DNA of 64,000 nucleotides from Flavobacteriaceae bacterium (GTDB lineage: Bacteria > Bacteroidota > Bacteroidia > Flavobacteriales > Flavobacteriaceae): the NCBI GenBank assembly GCA_016649715.1, contig JAENXC010000013.1, positions 1 to 64,000 on the forward strand. The letters are read 5' to 3'. Positions 2,234 to 43,161 of this stretch are shown piece after piece. Position 1 is the first letter of the stretch; every line of letters starts with the position of its first letter. The position numbers were made by a program, and so were the translations under genes. The notes under the pieces are model-generated. The model was given only the letters and a program-made list of their open reading frames with translations, was not told where the DNA came from and ran no database searches.

Positions 2234-4468
2234 TTGTTGGCTAAAACTGAATTTTCCTTTAAAAACCCAAGCAACGTGGCAGAGATTGACATATACGCAG
2301 CCCTAAAAAAATATTTTGGATTTACCAGATTTAAGGGCTTGCAAGAGGAAGTTGTAAAAAGTATCCTCAATGGTAAAAATACATTTGTGGTAATGCCCAC
2401 GGGTGGCGGCAAATCACTTTGTTACCAGCTTCCGGCACTTATGCAGGAAGGAACGGCAATAATAGTTTCGCCGCTTATTGCGCTGATGAAAAACCAAGTG
2501 GACGTGCTGCGCGCACTTTCTTCGGAAGAGGGAATTGCCCATGTTTTGAATTCTTCCCTCAACAAAACCGAAGTAAAAAAAGTAAAGGCCGACATAGCCA
2601 GTGGAATCACAAAACTGCTCTACGTGGCGCCCGAATCACTCACCAAAGAAGAATACGTAGCTTTTCTGCAGACACAGAAAATATCGTTTATGGCCATAGA
2701 CGAGGCCCATTGCATCAGCGAATGGGGCCACGATTTTAGGCCTGAATACCGAAATTTGAAAAGCATCATTCAGCGAATAGGGAACAATATCCCTATTATT
2801 GGCCTTACCGCAACCGCAACCCCAAAAGTGCAGGAAGACATTCTGAAAAACCTCAACATGCAGGAAGCCAATACCTTCAAAGCTTCTTTTAACCGTCCAA
2901 ACCTTTATTACGAAATTAGGCCGAAAACGAAAAATGTGGATTCGGATATCATCCGTTTTGTAAAACAGAACGAAGGGAAAAGCGGGATTATCTATTGTTT
3001 AAGCAGAAAAAGAGTAGAGGAAGTTGCGCAGGCCTTGCAGGTAAACGGTATAAAAGCCGTGCCCTATCACGCCGGACTCGATGGAAAAACCCGTGTTAAA
3101 CACCAAGATATGTTTTTGATGGAAGATGTGGACGTGGTGGTGGCAACCATAGCCTTTGGGATGGGGATTGACAAACCCGACGTTCGTTTCGTGATCCATA
3201 ACGACATTCCAAAAAGTATTGAAAGCTACTACCAAGAGACCGGACGCGCCGGAAGGGATGGCGGCGAAGGCCATTGTGTTGCTTTTTACAGTTATAAGGA
3301 CATTGAAAAGCTCGAAAAATTTATGAGCGGCAAGCCCATAGCCGAACAGGAAATTGGCCATGCACTGTTGCAGGAAGTGGTTGCTTTTGCCGAGACCTCC
3401 ATTTCACGAAGAAAATTCATCCTTCATTATTTCGGCGAAGAATTTGACAACGAAACTGGCGATGGTGGTATGATGGACGATAATATGCGCTATCCCAAAA
3501 AGAAACACGAGGCAAAGGACGATGCAAAACTACTTTTGGAAGTGGTTGCCAAAACAAACGAACAATACAGAAGCAAAGAAGTGGTAAATGTGTTGATAGG
3601 AAAGGTAAACGCCCTAATAAAATCGCACAGAACGGATACCCAGGAATATTTTGGCTCTGGCGACAAACACGATGCAGCATATTGGATGGCATTGTTACGC
3701 CAACTTTTGGTTGCGGGATTTTTGAAAAAGGATATTGAAACTTATGGGGTTATTCATTTAAATGATTTGGGAAAGAAGTTTATAAAATCGCCCGCTTCCT
3801 TTATGATGACCGAGGATCATTCCTTTAAAGACGCCAATGACGATGTGATTGTTGCCGCGAACAAAGAAGGCGATGTTGTGGACGAAGTACTCTTTAGACT
3901 TCTAAAGGCAGAACTTAAAAAAGTAGCACACGATTTAGACCTGCCGCCATTCGTGATTTTTCAGGAACCGTCCTTGGAGGATATGGCGCTTAAATATCCC
4001 ATAACAATGGACGAACTTTCCAGCGTTCACGGAGTGGGAGAGGGAAAGGCAAAAAAATACGGGAAATCCTTTTTAAAACTCATTCAAAAATACGTTGAGG
4101 AAAACGATATAATCCGTCCGGAAGATTTCGTTGTAAAATCTACGGGCAGCAACAGTTCCCTTAAATTATACATCATTCAAAACGTGGACCGCAAGCTCGC
4201 TTTGCCAGATATTGCCAACGCCAAAGGCATTGAAATGCGTGAGTTTATAAAGGAAATGGAAGCCATCGTTTACAGCGGCACCAAACTGAATATAGACTAT
4301 TGGGTTGATGAGGTTTTGGACGAAGAACAGCAGGAAGAAATCCACGAATATTTCCTTGAGGCTAAAACTGATAATATTGAAGAGGCTCTTGACGAATTTG
4401 ATGGCGATTACGACGAAGAGGAATTGCGGCTGTACCGCATCAAGTTTATTAGTGAAGTGGGGAATTAG
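2234..4468 (+). CDS. recQ: ATP-dependent DNA helicase RecQ
   Basis: MPTGGGKSLCYQLPAL, DEAHCISEWGHDFRPEY, QETGRAGRDG, RQC/HRDC-like C-terminus. Confidence 0.95.
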   Translation: MLAKTEFSFKNPSNVAEIDIYAALKKYFGFTRFKGLQEEVVKSILNGKNTFVVMPTGGGKSLCYQLPALMQEGTAIIVSPLIALMKNQVDVLRALSSEEGIAHVLNSSLNKTEVKKVKADIASGITKLLYVAPESLTKEEYVAFLQTQKISFMAIDEAHCISEWGHDFRPEYRNLKSIIQRIGNNIPIIGLTATATPKVQEDILKNLNMQEANTFKASFNRPNLYYEIRPKTKNVDSDIIRFVKQNEGKSGIIYCLSRKRVEEVAQALQVNGIKAVPYHAGLDGKTRVKHQDMFLMEDVDVVVATIAFGMGIDKPDVRFVIHNDIPKSIESYYQETGRAGRDGGEGHCVAFYSYKDIEKLEKFMSGKPIAEQEIGHALLQEVVAFAETSISRRKFILHYFGEEFDNETGDGGMMDDNMRYPKKKHEAKDDAKLLLEVVAKTNEQYRSKEVVNVLIGKVNALIKSHRTDTQEYFGSGDKHDAAYWMALLRQLLVAGFLKKDIETYGVIHLNDLGKKFIKSPASFMMTEDHSFKDANDDVIVAANKEGDVVDEVLFRLLKAELKKVAHDLDLPPFVIFQEPSLEDMALKYPITMDELSSVHGVGEGKAKKYGKSFLKLIQKYVEENDIIRPEDFVVKSTGSNSSLKLYIIQNVDRKLALPDIANAKGIEMREFIKEMEAIVYSGTKLNIDYWVDEVLDEEQQEEIHEYFLEAKTDNIEEALDEFDGDYDEEELRLYRIKFISEVGN

Positions 4469-4630: not shown

Positions 4631-4809
4631 TTGAATCTTGAACTTGTCACCCTGAGCGCAGTCGAAGGGTTGAATCTTGAACTTGTCACCCTGAGTAGCC
4701 TGTCCTGAGCGCAGTCGAAGGGCAGTCGAAGGGTTGAATCTTGAACTTGTCACCCTGAGTAGCCTGTCCTGAGCGCAGTCGAAGGGCAGTCGAAGGGCAG
4801 TCGAAGGGT
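4631..4809. repeat. Three tandem copies of TTGAATCTTGAACTTGTCACCCTGAGCGCAGTCGAAGGG with 1, 2 and 3 copies of the terminal CAGTCGAAGGG unit
   Basis: Read directly; an inverted single copy lies at about 24330-24357. Confidence 0.9.
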
Positions 4810-4819
4810 TGAATCGTGA

Positions 4820-5278
4820 TTACAATTCCACCAATACCTCATAAACACCATTTTCTTGGTTTTGCTCATAGGTAGTACCACTTATTTCCAGTTTGTTTAC
4901 CTGCACATAGGAACAACAATTTTCATTTTTTTCTTCTGCGTCGAGGTGTAAGGTGAAAATTTCACGATCGCCTACTTTTAAAAGGTAGTTTGCTATATTG
5001 GTTCCCCAACCAAATGGTCCCAAGCCGATTGTATTTCTATCATTTTCGGAATTAAAGGTGAATTGCACCTTGCTGTAATTATTGTCTATGTCCAAAACCT
5101 CAATATCGGCTTTATCAAAAGTGCCATTGGTAAATAAATTTTCGCCAGTGGTTTTGTCCAAAAGCTCAAAATCCAAACCCAATGGTCCAGAATTGCAAAG
5201 CACATCACATTTATCAACGCTACACGAATTCAAAACAATAGCAACGAAGCACAACAAAATAAAACCTATCTTTTTCAT
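4820..5278 (-). CDS. Small predicted lipoprotein, function unknown
   Basis: MKKIGFILLCFVAIVLNSCS lipobox. Confidence 0.7.
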   Translation of the reverse strand: MKKIGFILLCFVAIVLNSCSVDKCDVLCNSGPLGLDFELLDKTTGENLFTNGTFDKADIEVLDIDNNYSKVQFTFNSENDRNTIGLGPFGWGTNIANYLLKVGDREIFTLHLDAEEKNENCCSYVQVNKLEISGTTYEQNQENGVYEVLVEL

Positions 5279-19799: not shown

Positions 19800-20594
19800 A
19801 TGAATTACCTTCGCAAAATACCTTTTTTGAATCTATCTTTTTTAAAAATGCGCGAAAATTTTGTTATTCACCCAAACTATTCCCATTTGGCTGCAAAGCT
19901 AAAGGATGTGCTAAACAATTTTTCAATAAAAGGGGAATACGTAACCAAGGGGGAGCGCAATGTTATAAAAATGGTGCAACTGAAGGGCACTTCTTTAAAT
20001 ATTAAGAAGTTTAAAACGCCGAATGCTTTTCAATCCTCGGTTTATCAGCACATTCGGAAGAGCAAGGCAAAACGCTCTTTTGAATACGCTTCAAAATTGA
20101 TTGAATTGGGGATTAACACTCCTTTTCCCGTGGGGTATTTGGAAGTGTTTTCAGGAGGGTTGAAGGAGAGTTTCTTCATAAGTGAGCACATTAACTACGA
20201 TTTCGATTTCCGTGAATTGATACACAATCCGGAATTTAAAAAAAGGAACGAGATTTTAAGACAATTTACCCAATTTACTTTTAAACTTCACGAAAACGGT
20301 GTAAATTTTTTGGACCATTCTCCAGGAAACACCTTGATAATTGAAAGTGATAAAAACAAGTTTGATTTCTATTTAATCGATTTAAACCGGATGCGTTTTG
20401 AACCTATGGATTTTAACGCACGGATGCACAATTTTAGAAGACTTTGGCTTTCTAAAACGATGATGAAGGTAATGGCGGAGGAATATGCCGAGCTTTACAA
20501 CAAGCCCGTGGACGGCACGTATGCGCTGATGTTGCACCACAGTAGGGTTTTTCAGAAGAAGATTAACAGTAAGAAGTTGCGGAAGCGGAAGTAA
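19800..20594 (+). CDS. Lipopolysaccharide kinase, WaaP/InaA (Kdo/heptose kinase-like)
   Basis: KLHENGVNFLDHSPGNTLII catalytic loop, FYLIDLNRMRF. Confidence 0.82.
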   Translation: MNYLRKIPFLNLSFLKMRENFVIHPNYSHLAAKLKDVLNNFSIKGEYVTKGERNVIKMVQLKGTSLNIKKFKTPNAFQSSVYQHIRKSKAKRSFEYASKLIELGINTPFPVGYLEVFSGGLKESFFISEHINYDFDFRELIHNPEFKKRNEILRQFTQFTFKLHENGVNFLDHSPGNTLIIESDKNKFDFYLIDLNRMRFEPMDFNARMHNFRRLWLSKTMMKVMAEEYAELYNKPVDGTYALMLHHSRVFQKKINSKKLRKRK

Positions 20595-20632
20595 CTTGCC
20601 TATGAGCAACGTATAGTGCGTTTTTTCTTCGA

Positions 20633-20932
20633 TTATAGGAATGTCAACCCTATCTTTCTATTCAATCCTTGCTCAAAAATTCGTATCAAGGTAGAAAGTT
20701 GAATATTTCCTTTTCCGTTTTCTAGTTTTGATATGTAGCTTTTTTTTGTTCCAGCTTTGTCCGCAAGTTGTTCCTGTGTAAGATTTGCATCTTTTCTGGC
20801 AGCTTTAAGCATTTCACTCACGATAAACATTTGAGCACCTTCTTCGTATTTATTTCGGCTTTCCGCCCCGATTTTTCCGTGTTCTAACTCAATTAGCTCG
20901 TCAAAATTCTTTATTTCTTTATAATCTTTCAT
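20633..20932 (-). CDS. HigA-like XRE-family antitoxin
   Basis: LTQEQLADKAGTKKSYISKLENGKGNIQLSTLIRI. Confidence 0.88.
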   Translation of the reverse strand: MKDYKEIKNFDELIELEHGKIGAESRNKYEEGAQMFIVSEMLKAARKDANLTQEQLADKAGTKKSYISKLENGKGNIQLSTLIRIFEQGLNRKIGLTFL

Positions 20933-21273
20933 AATCTTTGCTTTTTGTTTTCAAAATAGTCTTTCATCAATTGTTCTGCTTTACCGATTTCATTTTGCGG
21001 TGTCTTTTGGGTCTTTTTTTGAAAACCGTTAAAAAGCACTACAAGTTTTCCTTCATCGAAACAGCAGAAAATCCGAAATATATTTGATTGGTATTCAACT
21101 CGGATTTCATAAAGTCCGCTCGTTCCTGTTAAATGTTTTAAAAACTTTTCGGGAACTCGGTCAACTTGTTTAATCAATTCGAAAACGTATTGAATTTTAC
21201 CTTTTACTTCTTGAGTTTGTATTTGATAAAATTCAATAAAATGGTTTTCGTGAAAGATTATTTTTCTAACCAT
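20929..21273 (-). CDS. HigB/RelE-like toxin (phage-derived Gp49-like)
   Basis: RVPEKFLKHLTGTSGLYEIRVEYQSNIFRIFCCFDEGKLVVLFNGFQKKTQKTP; 4-bp overlap with antitoxin. Confidence 0.88.
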   Translation of the reverse strand: MVRKIIFHENHFIEFYQIQTQEVKGKIQYVFELIKQVDRVPEKFLKHLTGTSGLYEIRVEYQSNIFRIFCCFDEGKLVVLFNGFQKKTQKTPQNEIGKAEQLMKDYFENKKQRL

Positions 21274-21281
21274 TTCGCAAA

Positions 21282-21299
21282 GTTATCTTAAAAGATAAC
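21282..21299. promoter_or_regulatory. Candidate HigBA operator palindrome GTTATCTT-AA-AAGATAAC
   Basis: 8+8 bp perfect inverted repeat 9 bp upstream of the toxin start. Confidence 0.65.
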
Positions 21300-21360
21300 A
21301 ATTGCCAAGTTTTTATTTGTTTTTATCATAATAATAATTTTTGTCTTTTTAGAATCAAAC

Positions 21361-21444
21361 ACAATTTTAGAAGACTTTGGCTTTCAAAAACGATGATGAA
21401 GGTAATAGAAGATTAACAGTAAGAAGTTGTGGAGGCGGAGGTAG
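21361..21444 (+). pseudogene. Partial, internally deleted copy of the 3' end of the 19800..20594 kinase gene
   Basis: 21361-21406 matches 20428-20473 and 21407-21444 matches 20557-20594 (about 5 mismatches in 84 bp). Confidence 0.85.
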
Positions 21445-21500
21445 TTGACAGTATTCTGTGGCAGACGGCAGACGTTAATTTTCAATTTTCAATTCACAAT
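21445..21500. repeat. Degenerate heptad array (TTGACAG...CGGCAGA CGTTAAT TTTCAAT TTTCAAT TCACAAT)
   Basis: Units in one 7-bp register. Confidence 0.65.
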
Positions 21501-21506
21501 TAACCT

Positions 21507-22322
21507 TTAAACCGCCACCCCATACTCCCTTAACGCATCATTCAAAGAAGTTTTTAAATTTGTACTTTCCTTCCGCACCCCAATAATCAAAGCACACGGC
21601 ACTTGATATTCTCCTGCGGGAAATTTTTTGGTGTAACTTCCGGGTATTACCACCGAGCGTTCAGGCACAGAACCTTTAGTTTCTACTGGGGTTTCTCCAG
21701 TAACGTCTATAATTTTTGTGGAAGCGGTAAGCACCACATTGGCGCCCAAAACGGCTTCTTTACCAATGCGAACACCTTCCACCACAATACAGCGCGAACC
21801 TATAAAAGCACCATCTTCAACAATAACTGGGGCAGCTTGCAACGGTTCCAACACGCCGCCAATGCCTACGCCACCGCTAAGGTGTACGTTTTTGCCAATC
21901 TGTGCGCAACTGCCCACTGTGGCCCAAGTGTCCACCATGGTGCCTTCGTCCACATAAGCTCCAATATTTACATAGCTGGGCATTAGGATTACGCCTCTTG
22001 CAATATAGGCTCCGTGCCTTGCAACAGCGTGTGGAACCACGCGGATGCCTTTGGCCTCGTAACCTGTTTTTAAAGGTATTTTATCGTGATATTCAAAAAT
22101 GCCGACTTCAATTGTCTTCATTTTTTGGATGGGAAAGTAGAGCACGATTGCTTTTTTAACCCATTCGTTAACTTGCCAGCCAGTAGCGGTTGGTTCTGCA
22201 CAGCGCAATTTGCCTTCGTCACAAAGGTTGACCACTTCGCGGATGGCGACGATGGTTTCGGTTTCGGTGAGCAGGGAACGATCTTCCCAGGCATTTTCTA
22301 TGGTTTGTTGAAGTTCGGTCAT
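21507..22322 (-). CDS. dapD: 2,3,4,5-tetrahydropyridine-2,6-dicarboxylate N-succinyltransferase
   Basis: VVPHAVARHGAYIARGVILMPSYVNIGAYVDEGTMVDTWATVGSCAQIGKNVHLSGG. Confidence 0.96.
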   Translation of the reverse strand: MTELQQTIENAWEDRSLLTETETIVAIREVVNLCDEGKLRCAEPTATGWQVNEWVKKAIVLYFPIQKMKTIEVGIFEYHDKIPLKTGYEAKGIRVVPHAVARHGAYIARGVILMPSYVNIGAYVDEGTMVDTWATVGSCAQIGKNVHLSGGVGIGGVLEPLQAAPVIVEDGAFIGSRCIVVEGVRIGKEAVLGANVVLTASTKIIDVTGETPVETKGSVPERSVVIPGSYTKKFPAGEYQVPCALIIGVRKESTNLKTSLNDALREYGVAV

Positions 22323-22323
22323 C

Positions 22324-22386
22324 GGTTATCTGTTATCAGTTATCAGTTGTCGGTTATCAGTTGTCGGTTATCAGTTGTCGGTTGGG
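22324..22386. repeat. Heptad array GGTTATC/AGTTGTC (9 units)
   Basis: Strict 7-bp period. Confidence 0.92.
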
Positions 22387-40150: not shown

Positions 40151-40189
40151 TATTCACGGTGTTGCCAGTAGTACTTTTTCCTCTCGATA

Positions 40190-40492
40190 TTAAACGTCAA
40201 GCGAAAATTTTAAACTTCCGCCCAATCCTTCTCGGATTATTCTCATCAAGGTCGAAAGTCGAATATCACTTGCATTATTTTCAATTCTCGAAATATAGTT
40301 TTTCGTAGTTCCAACTTTTTCGGCAAGCTGTTCCTGTGTCAGATGCTGTTTTTTTCTTGCCTCTTGAATTAGAACTCCAATCTTAAATGTTTCGAATTCT
40401 TCTTGGAATTTCTCACGTGATTCAGTTCCGATTTTTCCGTACTGCTCGTCCAAATGGTCGTCAAACGATGTAATTCTCTTATCTGTTTTCAT
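40190..40492 (-). CDS. HigA-like XRE-family antitoxin
   Basis: LTQEQLAEKVGTTKNYISRIENNASDIRLSTLMRIIREGL; paralog of 20633..20932. Confidence 0.88.
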   Translation of the reverse strand: MKTDKRITSFDDHLDEQYGKIGTESREKFQEEFETFKIGVLIQEARKKQHLTQEQLAEKVGTTKNYISRIENNASDIRLSTLMRIIREGLGGSLKFSLDV

Positions 40493-40828
40493 AATATTCT
40501 TTTTTTAGTCGTTCCGCTTTTTTAATTTCATTTTTGGGCGTTTTCTGGGTTTTCTTTTGAAATCCGCTCAAGAGAATAATTAAATTTCCTTCTTCGAAAA
40601 AGCAGAGAATCCGAAATATTCCATTTCCAGCAGAAATCCGCACTTCCCAAAGTCCGTCAGTATTCGTAAGATGTTTTAGAAATTTTTCTGGAACAATCCG
40701 AGTGTTTCTCAATACCAAAAGTGTCCAATCTATTTTCTTACGAACAGCGAGCGACTGTTTGGAATAAAATTCTTTAAAGTGGTTTTCAATCCTATTTCTC
40801 TTTTGAATTCGCTCAATTTGTTGTGGTT
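40479..40828 (-). pseudogene. HigB/RelE-like toxin, no in-frame canonical start codon (inframe from ~40828; Met-initiated ORF begins only at 40718)
   Basis: Upstream in-frame QQIERIQKRNRIENHFKEFYSKQSLAVRKKIDWTLLVLRNTRIVPEKFLKHL aligns to paralog MVRKIIFHENHFIEFY...; no ATG/GTG/TTG in frame before the stop. Confidence 0.6.
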
Positions 40829-40922
40829 AAATTTTCTCCAAAGTTACCTAAAAGGGCAACATTTTCCTAATTTAATTTTAGAATTTTTGTCGAGCGGACG
40901 GATTTTCTGTATTACTGGCAAC

Positions 40923-40956
40923 ATGCGGATAAATGCAATATTGCATTTATCCGCAT
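40923..40956. repeat. Perfect 34-bp palindrome ATGCGGATAAATGCAAT|ATTGCATTTATCCGCAT
   Basis: Arms are exact reverse complements with no spacer. Confidence 0.95.
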
Positions 40957-41229: not shown

Positions 41230-41901
41230 TTAAAAGCCCACAAGGAAACGCTGCTTAAAACTGCTGCTTTCACCTTGAAAGACTGCTAAATAGAATCCAT
41301 TCTCTAAAAAACTTACATCTATTGCGCTATTTTCACTGCTCAGGGAAGTGCTGTAAACCCTTTTCCCCAAAACATCAAAAACCGTCATTTCTATAGGTTC
41401 AGCAAGTGGCGTGTTTAGGCGAATGTTCAGTATTCCGTAGGAAGGGTTTGGGTATAGTATCGCTTTTTGGGTTGTGTAATCCGTGATTCCTATCATTGCG
41501 CCACCCACCCAGACAGTCTCGGTATAGTCCGATTCCACGCCCCCTGGATTGTAAACAGCGGTTACGTGGGCATAAAATCCCTCTCCATTTCCATATAATA
41601 AAAAATCTACACCTCCGCAATTGCTTATTATTCCATAAATACTATCAATATTATAAATAGAATTTTCGCCACTAATAAATATATAAAAGTCATTTTCTCT
41701 ATAAATATTAAATCCAATAATTTCGTCGTGAGGTTGTTCAGGCTCACCCCATTCAAGAATAAAGAAATTGTTGGGAAAGTCATACCATTGCTCCCACGTA
41801 AGGTTTAAAACTGGGTTAATTTGTCCGAATGACTGAAAAGTGAAAAGAAGAAAAAGACCGATGGTAAGTGTAATTGTTTTCATAAGTTGCCATTTTTGCA
41901 T
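41230..41901 (-). CDS. T9SS type A sorting domain-containing protein
   Basis: Signal peptide; C-terminal YPNPSYGILNIRLNTPLAEPIEMTVFDVLGKRVY...GFYLAVFQG. Confidence 0.85.
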   Translation of the reverse strand: MQKWQLMKTITLTIGLFLLFTFQSFGQINPVLNLTWEQWYDFPNNFFILEWGEPEQPHDEIIGFNIYRENDFYIFISGENSIYNIDSIYGIISNCGGVDFLLYGNGEGFYAHVTAVYNPGGVESDYTETVWVGGAMIGITDYTTQKAILYPNPSYGILNIRLNTPLAEPIEMTVFDVLGKRVYSTSLSSENSAIDVSFLENGFYLAVFQGESSSFKQRFLVGF

Positions 41902-41997: not shown

Positions 41998-43161
41998 TCA
42001 TTCCAAAACAATCCTTCTGACAGCCAGAACTTCCCCGTTTTTAAAAACAGCAGCATAAACGCCACTTCCCAAAAACCCTAAATCCAAAGTAGTGTTTTCA
42101 GTATTCAAAGAAGTGCTGTAAACCCTTTTTCCCAAAACATCAAAAACCGTCATTGCTAAAGGTTCAGAAAGTGGCGTGTTTAGGCGAATGTTCAGTATTC
42201 CGTGGGAAGGGTTTGGGTAAAGAACCAAGTTTGCATCAAAATTGTTTTCTGAAACGCCCAAGGGTTCGCGCGCCACGGCAAAATGCAATGCCGCGCCCAA
42301 AGCGCCTTTTGAAACTTCAAAAACGTAATCGGGGTCCATGTTTTCAATAATGTCATTGGGGCCGTGCGGGTAGGGCGACTCGTTGGCTTCATAAAGACCC
42401 GTAATCACTTCGCCATTGTTTTCAAACGGCATATAGTCTGAAGCATAGGCATAGGAAATCTCCGTTTGAAGGTTGGAATACAGCCCGAAACAGTTCGCCA
42501 TTTCCTGCGTAGCCTGTGCAGACGCCGCGTTGTTTGAGCTTGGCGAAGACTCGTCGCGCTCGCAAACAATGGTGTTGTTGTTCATACTGGCAACGCCGCC
42601 CACTTCGTCTATGTTCAGGACCAATTTAATGTCCAAATTTTCAGGAATTACGGTGTGGTTCACGTAATACTCGCTGCCCACCAAACCTTCTTCCTCGCCG
42701 CTAAAGTGGATAAACTTGATGGAATAATCAGTATCTACGTCTTTTAGCAACCTTGCCAGTTCCAGTATTAGCACGGTTCCGCTGCCGTTATCGTTGGCAC
42801 CGGGGCCGTTTAAGGTGTCGTAATGGCCATCAATTATCAGAAAAGTATTTGGATAAACGCTCCCCGTTTTGGTGATGATGATATTGGAGGTTGTTTGCCC
42901 ATAAACGTTAAATGGCTGTGTTTCAATAGTGGTGTAGCCCAAAGCTTGGTAGCGCGCAATGATCCAGTTTTTTGCGGCTTCAATTTCGCTGCTTCCGGGC
43001 TCTTTTACGCCGAAAGCTACCAAAGTAGTGAGGTCGTTTAAAATGTTTGTTGAAGAAGTGTTTTCAACAATTCCGTTGTAATAGGGGTTGAAAACCTGTG
43101 CGTTAGCGCTGAAAATTGTAAAAAGGCAAAGTAAAATTGTAAACTGGGGAAATGATTTCAT
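41998..43161 (-). CDS. M28 family metallopeptidase with T9SS sorting domain
   Basis: IDGHYDTLNGPGANDNGSGTVLILELARLL, HFSGEEEGLVGSEYYV; C-terminal YPNPSHGILNIRLNTPL. Confidence 0.92.
   Translation of the reverse strand: MKSFPQFTILLCLFTIFSANAQVFNPYYNGIVENTSSTNILNDLTTLVAFGVKEPGSSEIEAAKNWIIARYQALGYTTIETQPFNVYGQTTSNIIITKTGSVYPNTFLIIDGHYDTLNGPGANDNGSGTVLILELARLLKDVDTDYSIKFIHFSGEEEGLVGSEYYVNHTVIPENLDIKLVLNIDEVGGVASMNNNTIVCERDESSPSSNNAASAQATQEMANCFGLYSNLQTEISYAYASDYMPFENNGEVITGLYEANESPYPHGPNDIIENMDPDYVFEVSKGALGAALHFAVAREPLGVSENNFDANLVLYPNPSHGILNIRLNTPLSEPLAMTVFDVLGKRVYSTSLNTENTTLDLGFLGSGVYAAVFKNGEVLAVRRIVLE

Follow-up and report, generated by a model that had tools for sequence, protein, structure and literature searches.

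A predicted HigBA-type toxin-antitoxin (TA) operon in this Flavobacteriaceae genome lies between an intact lipopolysaccharide kinase gene and a shortened second copy of the 3' end of that same gene. We consider it probable that the bare operon inserted behind the kinase stop codon and that about 167 bp of the gene end were duplicated in the process, as a long target duplication. A sequence-only reading of this DNA had proposed a search of other genomes for such modules next to duplicated gene ends, and related TA modules adjoining duplicated ends of other genes were indeed found. Positions given below are those of the window, the whole stretch of 64,000 nucleotides that was analyzed, unless another locus is named (Table 1).

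Table 1. Features of the window locus and gene-end duplications at other HigBA loci. For the latter, the duplicated gene is named, and the length and identity of the repeat are given under support.
Locus	Feature	Position	Strand	Support
Window	Intact Kdo/WaaP-family lipopolysaccharide kinase gene	19800..20594	+	ORF; PF06293, E = 3.4e-10
Window	Upstream, retained copy of the kinase 3' end (duplicated target), about 167 bp	20428..20594	+	
Window	Insert: bare higBA operon between the two kinase-end copies, 765 bp	20595..21359	-	
Window	higA-type antitoxin gene (HTH_3), 99 aa	20633..20932	-	PF01381, E = 4.4e-15
Window	higB-type toxin gene (Gp49/DUF891), 114 aa, 4-bp overlap with higA	20929..21273	-	PF05973, E = 3.8e-21
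Window	Palindrome GTTATCTT-AA-AAGATAAC upstream of higB, probable operator	21282..21299	.	
Window	Remnant: downstream copy of the kinase 3' end, 83 bp deleted at 21406/21407	21360..21444	+	
Window	dapD, conserved neighbor marking the far side of the site	21507..22322	-	NF008808, above cut-off
L066	COX1 (coxA)			113 bp, 84%
L080 (genome G225)	HemN-type radical SAM gene (hemW-like)			39 bp, 92%
L102	HATPase_c_4 gene			112 bp, 94%
L147	Glycosyltransferase			65 bp, 92%
L151	646-aa ORF without Pfam match			46 bp, 89%
L152	M19 dipeptidase			82 bp, 91%
L154	Gene with T9SS tail			63 bp, 98%
L155	Seryl-tRNA synthetase (serS); near the gene end, not at it			140 bp, 97%
L158	ABC transporter			376 bp, 94%

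Two copies of the kinase 3' end bracket the TA genes

The kinase-end repeat consists of two blocks, both of which were recovered when the 64-kb window was compared with itself. The first pairs 20427-20473 with 21360-21406 (47 bp, 46/47 identical, 98%; E = 2e-15), and the second pairs 20557-20593 with 21407-21443 (37 bp, 34/37 identical, 92%; E = 3e-7). Because the blocks are collinear and contiguous in the downstream copy, the 83 bp that separate them in the kinase gene (20474-20556) are absent there. Once the blocks are joined, 5 mismatches in 85 positions separate the copies, the stop codon included (TAA in one copy and TAG in the other). A whole-genome search found the 167-bp kinase end in two places only, both of them at this locus. 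The bracketing of a TA module by gene-end duplications is thus real, as the sequence-only reading had it, with both blocks lying no more than 1 bp from where that reading placed them; the gene identities that it assigned (Kdo/WaaP kinase, HTH_3 antitoxin, and Gp49/HigB-type toxin) also hold. The heptad array that it placed immediately downstream, at 21445, does not: Tandem Repeats Finder calls none at this position, which shows the GGCAGAC unit just twice, along with an AT-rich run, and the nearest real heptad array called by the program is at 22321-22383.

When the five differences between the copies were polarized against other species of the genus, two were assigned as derived changes to the kinase and the other three to the remnant. 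The duplicate is therefore sequence of the genome's own lineage. In another reading the upstream copy is the newcomer, namely, that a donor kinase end with the TA genes behind it recombined within the kinase and was joined illegitimately downstream, leaving the remnant as the native end. Homology-facilitated illegitimate recombination of this kind is known in bacteria (PMC3240628), and it predicts the same layout. However, no foreign stretch is evident in the intact kinase end, which is 85% identical to that of the nearest congener while the remaining kinase gene is 82 to 88% identical, and by these values the kinase end bears no sign of import. Such recombination also presupposes a donor in which a TA module already stood behind the kinase, and so only moves the insertion one step back. 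We regard this explanation as unlikely.

The insert is confined to the higBA operon

Apart from a spurious ORF overlapping the kinase end, higA and higB are the sole ORFs of at least 50 aa in the insert, and no integrase, transposase, or insertion sequence (IS) was found among the ORFs of this size in the 765 bp. The toxin gene, of the RelE/Gp49 type, precedes the HTH antitoxin gene and shares an operon with it, the arrangement of a type II HigBA system, and the toxin-gene product matches the HigB toxin of PDB 6af3 (E = 5.8e-5). The pair is accordingly predicted, from family and gene order, to be a HigBA-type module encoding a toxin and its antitoxin. The arms of the palindrome upstream of higB were found again upstream of higB in other genera, and the palindrome would be the operator. 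The module thus resembles known HigBA-type (Gp49/HTH) modules, including that of PDB 6af3, in its toxin and antitoxin families, its toxin-first order, and its upstream palindrome. It differs in what is described: the known modules by their function, this one by its insertion scar.

Alignment with relatives from other genera delimited the unit. Homology begins about 30 to 50 nt upstream of higB and ends at the higA stop codon or at most about 20 nt past it, and in these alignments the homologous unit includes neither a terminal repeat nor an integrase or gene end. The homologous modules stop near the higA stop codon, and a replacement gene end carried on the element was not found.

Elsewhere in the window, at 40190-40790, a divergent second HigBA-like pair (toxin identity, 54%) lies behind a tRNA-methyltransferase-like gene; its flanks bear a motif in inverted orientation (GTGTTGCCAGTAGTAC, 40159-40174; TATTACTGGCAACA, 40910-40923). 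A 128-bp direct repeat (41330-41457 and 42095-42222, 91% identity) was considered as a second case of the scar and rejected; it spans the C-terminal tail regions of two secreted-protein genes that lie side by side and probably represents a sorting tail for type IX secretion. A 64-bp unit is repeated 2.2 times with 100% identity at 4658-4797.

The kinase-dapD site lacks module and duplicate in other species

The kinase was found in 27 other species of the genus (65 to 89% amino acid identity). A TA module of the window type was present at none of these 27 loci, and a comparison of each kinase end with the DNA downstream of it revealed no duplicate in any of the 27, leaving the window genome alone in having one. 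TA-free relatives already containing the duplicate, which the sequence-only reading had named as the sign that the duplicate predates the insertion, are thus absent among the congeners, in a comparison that is between species only.

In many congeners, dapD adjoins the kinase, and where both genes were found they either overlap by a few bases or are separated by a gap of up to 1.4 kb. One species (G001) has an AbiH-family gene in this gap (locus L031, 3241-4497; PF14253, E = 6e-28) with no duplicate of the kinase end, and short unassigned ORFs lie in the gap in further congeners. Since the gap holds other cargo in some species, the site evidently accepts inserts. At L034, a short ORF in the gap resembles the start of a HigA/VapI-type antitoxin (MEKLANVHPGEIL...); it has no Pfam match and is possibly a different, decayed TA module.

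Flanking repeats and gene-end duplications recur at HigBA loci

We surveyed 104 usable HigBA loci, mostly from Bacteroidota, which were collected by family search and genome scan and sampled by similarity to the HigB of the window. Direct repeats were sought within 700 bp on both sides of each locus, and shifted windows at the same loci served as controls; the flanks were cut to 700 bp since a looser, 1,500-bp test gave 30 positives in 268 controls. Direct repeats surrounded 37 of the 104 HigBA loci versus 10 of 276 shifted windows (Fisher P = 4e-15), and inverted repeats in the same test surrounded 2 of 104. Chance placement of dispersed repeats would show no such strong orientation preference. 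At 10 of the 104 loci, the repeat was the 3' part of an intact neighboring gene, versus 1 of 276 shifted controls (P = 1.4e-5). Against windows anchored at gene ends, the excess was weaker (3/114, from two loci, versus 10/104; P = 0.04). ParE-type TA loci had flanking repeats in 4 of 27 cases and gene-end duplications in 0 of 27, and neither DinB-family genes nor the kinases of congeners had flanking repeats (gene-end duplications, 0/29 in each set).

The layout is the same in all ten cases, with the TA module between an intact gene and a short remnant (Table 1; target genes were named by Pfam). The repeat at L154 could reflect paralogous T9SS tails rather than a duplication. The right copy lies less than 30 nt from the higA stop codon in 5 of the 9 cases in which that codon was located: it starts at the stop codon itself at L147, L151, and L158 and follows it by 12 nt at L152 and by 27 nt at L154. 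At the window locus the distance is 38 to 39 nt, and at L066, L080, and L155 it is 190 to 340 nt. For the hemW-like target, an empty site is available. In the closest sister species (94% amino acid identity), the next gene begins about 19 bp after hemW, with neither a TA module nor a remnant, and other close relatives of the G225 locus likewise lack both; in G225, the sequence past the remnant is also rearranged. A single target copy with no insert is therefore seen both in the 27 kinase congeners and in the hemW sister species, in each case between species.

These comparisons weigh on the order of events. It could be argued that the kinase end was partially duplicated first and that the TA module entered between the copies later, and from one genome alone the order of two events is not readable. 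Yet the duplicate occurs without a TA module in none of the 27 congeners, nor in the closest hemW relatives, and to account for ten loci that pair a TA module with a gene-end duplicate, two independent events would have to be assumed for each. We judge this order of events to be quite improbable.

Another candidate is a phage, integrative and conjugative element (ICE), or satellite whose attachment site was the kinase 3' end; it would have supplied a replacement end and since lost everything except the TA genes. Such elements typically integrate at the 3' ends of genes and leave an intact copy to one side, and the window locus resembles their products in its target and in its outcome of one intact end and one remnant. 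It differs in showing no recombinase, fixed target gene, fixed repeat length, or element-borne gene end: the insert has no integrase, ten different target genes are duplicated over lengths of 39 to 376 bp, and no gene end is part of the homologous modules. An element with a replacement end is unlikely, given that the duplicated gene is the local one at each locus, and we hold this origin to be very unlikely overall. The sequence-only reading had the module inserting at the gene end and regenerating it. The first part fits the evidence, in that a duplication accompanies the insertion (TA-free congeners lack the duplicate, and the scar recurs); regeneration by a gene end borne on the element does not, since the unit ends near the higA stop codon. 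Target duplication is preferred because the unit carries no gene end, each locus duplicates its own gene, and the duplicate here is of the genome's own lineage.

Two loci fall outside the set of ten. At L098, a match among the controls and itself an insertion, the 3' end of glmS is duplicated (795-864 and 2256-2324; 70 bp, 90% identity) around two small orphan membrane-protein-like ORFs that are not TA genes, so the scar is not restricted to TA cargo. At L090, the HigBA module lies between the copies of a duplicated gene 5' end (photolyase-like; 3513-3686 and 4822-4999); this is the sole 5' case and was counted apart.

About two-thirds of the flanking repeats are something other than gene ends; of these, the two that were checked genome-wide, those of L067 and L070, are dispersed repeats. 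Flanking repeats of this sort at other HigBA loci may have another origin. The repeats of L085 to L091, L099, L105, L125, and L141 were set aside as not being gene ends, and L123 and L113 were removed for their short matches and doubtful reading frames. At L067, the flanking pair (914-995 and 1905-1986) shares 82 bp, of which most other genomic copies have only the last 59 bp; the pair could be a target duplication of a locus containing a dispersed repeat. In four Cyclobacteriaceae loci (L086, L087, L088, and L091), HigBA is flanked by a common hairpin-like repeat (TAACATCACCTTGG ... CCCGTTA) in direct orientation.

The hairpin-like, partly dispersed direct repeats around L086 to L091, L105, L125, and L141 are what might be expected if the modules were cassettes of an integron-like array that recombine at the repeats on either side. 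In the window, however, the repeat is coding sequence that is unique in the genome, and no significant attC-type fold was found at the module edge (20595-20660; z = -0.84). We give almost no weight to such an origin for the window locus.

Discussion

Insertion with target duplication could have proceeded as follows. The higBA operon would enter directly after the kinase stop codon, with duplication of the kinase 3' end; the upstream copy would stay the working gene end, and the downstream copy, being redundant, would decay, here by the 83-bp deletion and about three substitutions. The joining step may have been a repair-associated illegitimate join, for example, one in which replication or repair, having switched onto the TA DNA, returns to the original template at a point about 100 bp upstream. 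A template switch with such a step back is favored because the repeats vary in length from locus to locus and no sequence is common to the targets. Insertions that keep the upstream gene whole would survive selection, and because a gene-end duplication leaves both gene and promoter whole, selection may explain part of the 3' bias. The toxin, in turn, would disfavor loss of the module through recombination between the flanking repeats.

Insertion with a long and variable target duplication, on the order of 100 bp, is described for restriction-modification (R-M) genes, first in Helicobacter pylori (Nobusato 2000) and later by Furuta et al. (2010), both as related in PMC3874152, PMC3031569, and PMC1643837. 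The window locus shares several properties with those cases: long and variable direct repeats of the target flank an insert without a mobile element of its own, relatives have a single copy of the target, and the cargo is of the addiction type. The HigBA cases differ in that the cargo is a Gp49/HTH type II TA operon and not R-M genes, the hosts are mostly Bacteroidota, the identified coding targets are almost always the 3' parts of genes, and the homologous unit extends little beyond the operon. Since the cargo is TA and not R-M, we place the locus as a variant of this type of insertion and not as a member of the R-M set. The pattern known from R-M genes would thereby extend to another addiction-type cargo, a bare TA operon inserted at the 3' ends of genes. 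No description of a gene-end scar for TA operons was found in the literature searched, most subscription papers being outside its reach.

The scar addresses the question of how chromosomal TA operons spread when no mobile element is visible. It recurs with a measurable excess over controls, and the bracketed sites, insert-free relatives, and unit boundaries make both the joining step and retention by the toxin testable. As a tentative generalization, bare type II TA operons in Bacteroidota might be minimal mobile units that spread by an integrase-free process with target duplication. The 3' ends of genes would be the main places where this is tolerated, and the toxin would then protect the repeats from collapse. 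The recurrence of the scar around related units suggests how TA units may move without a visible transposon.
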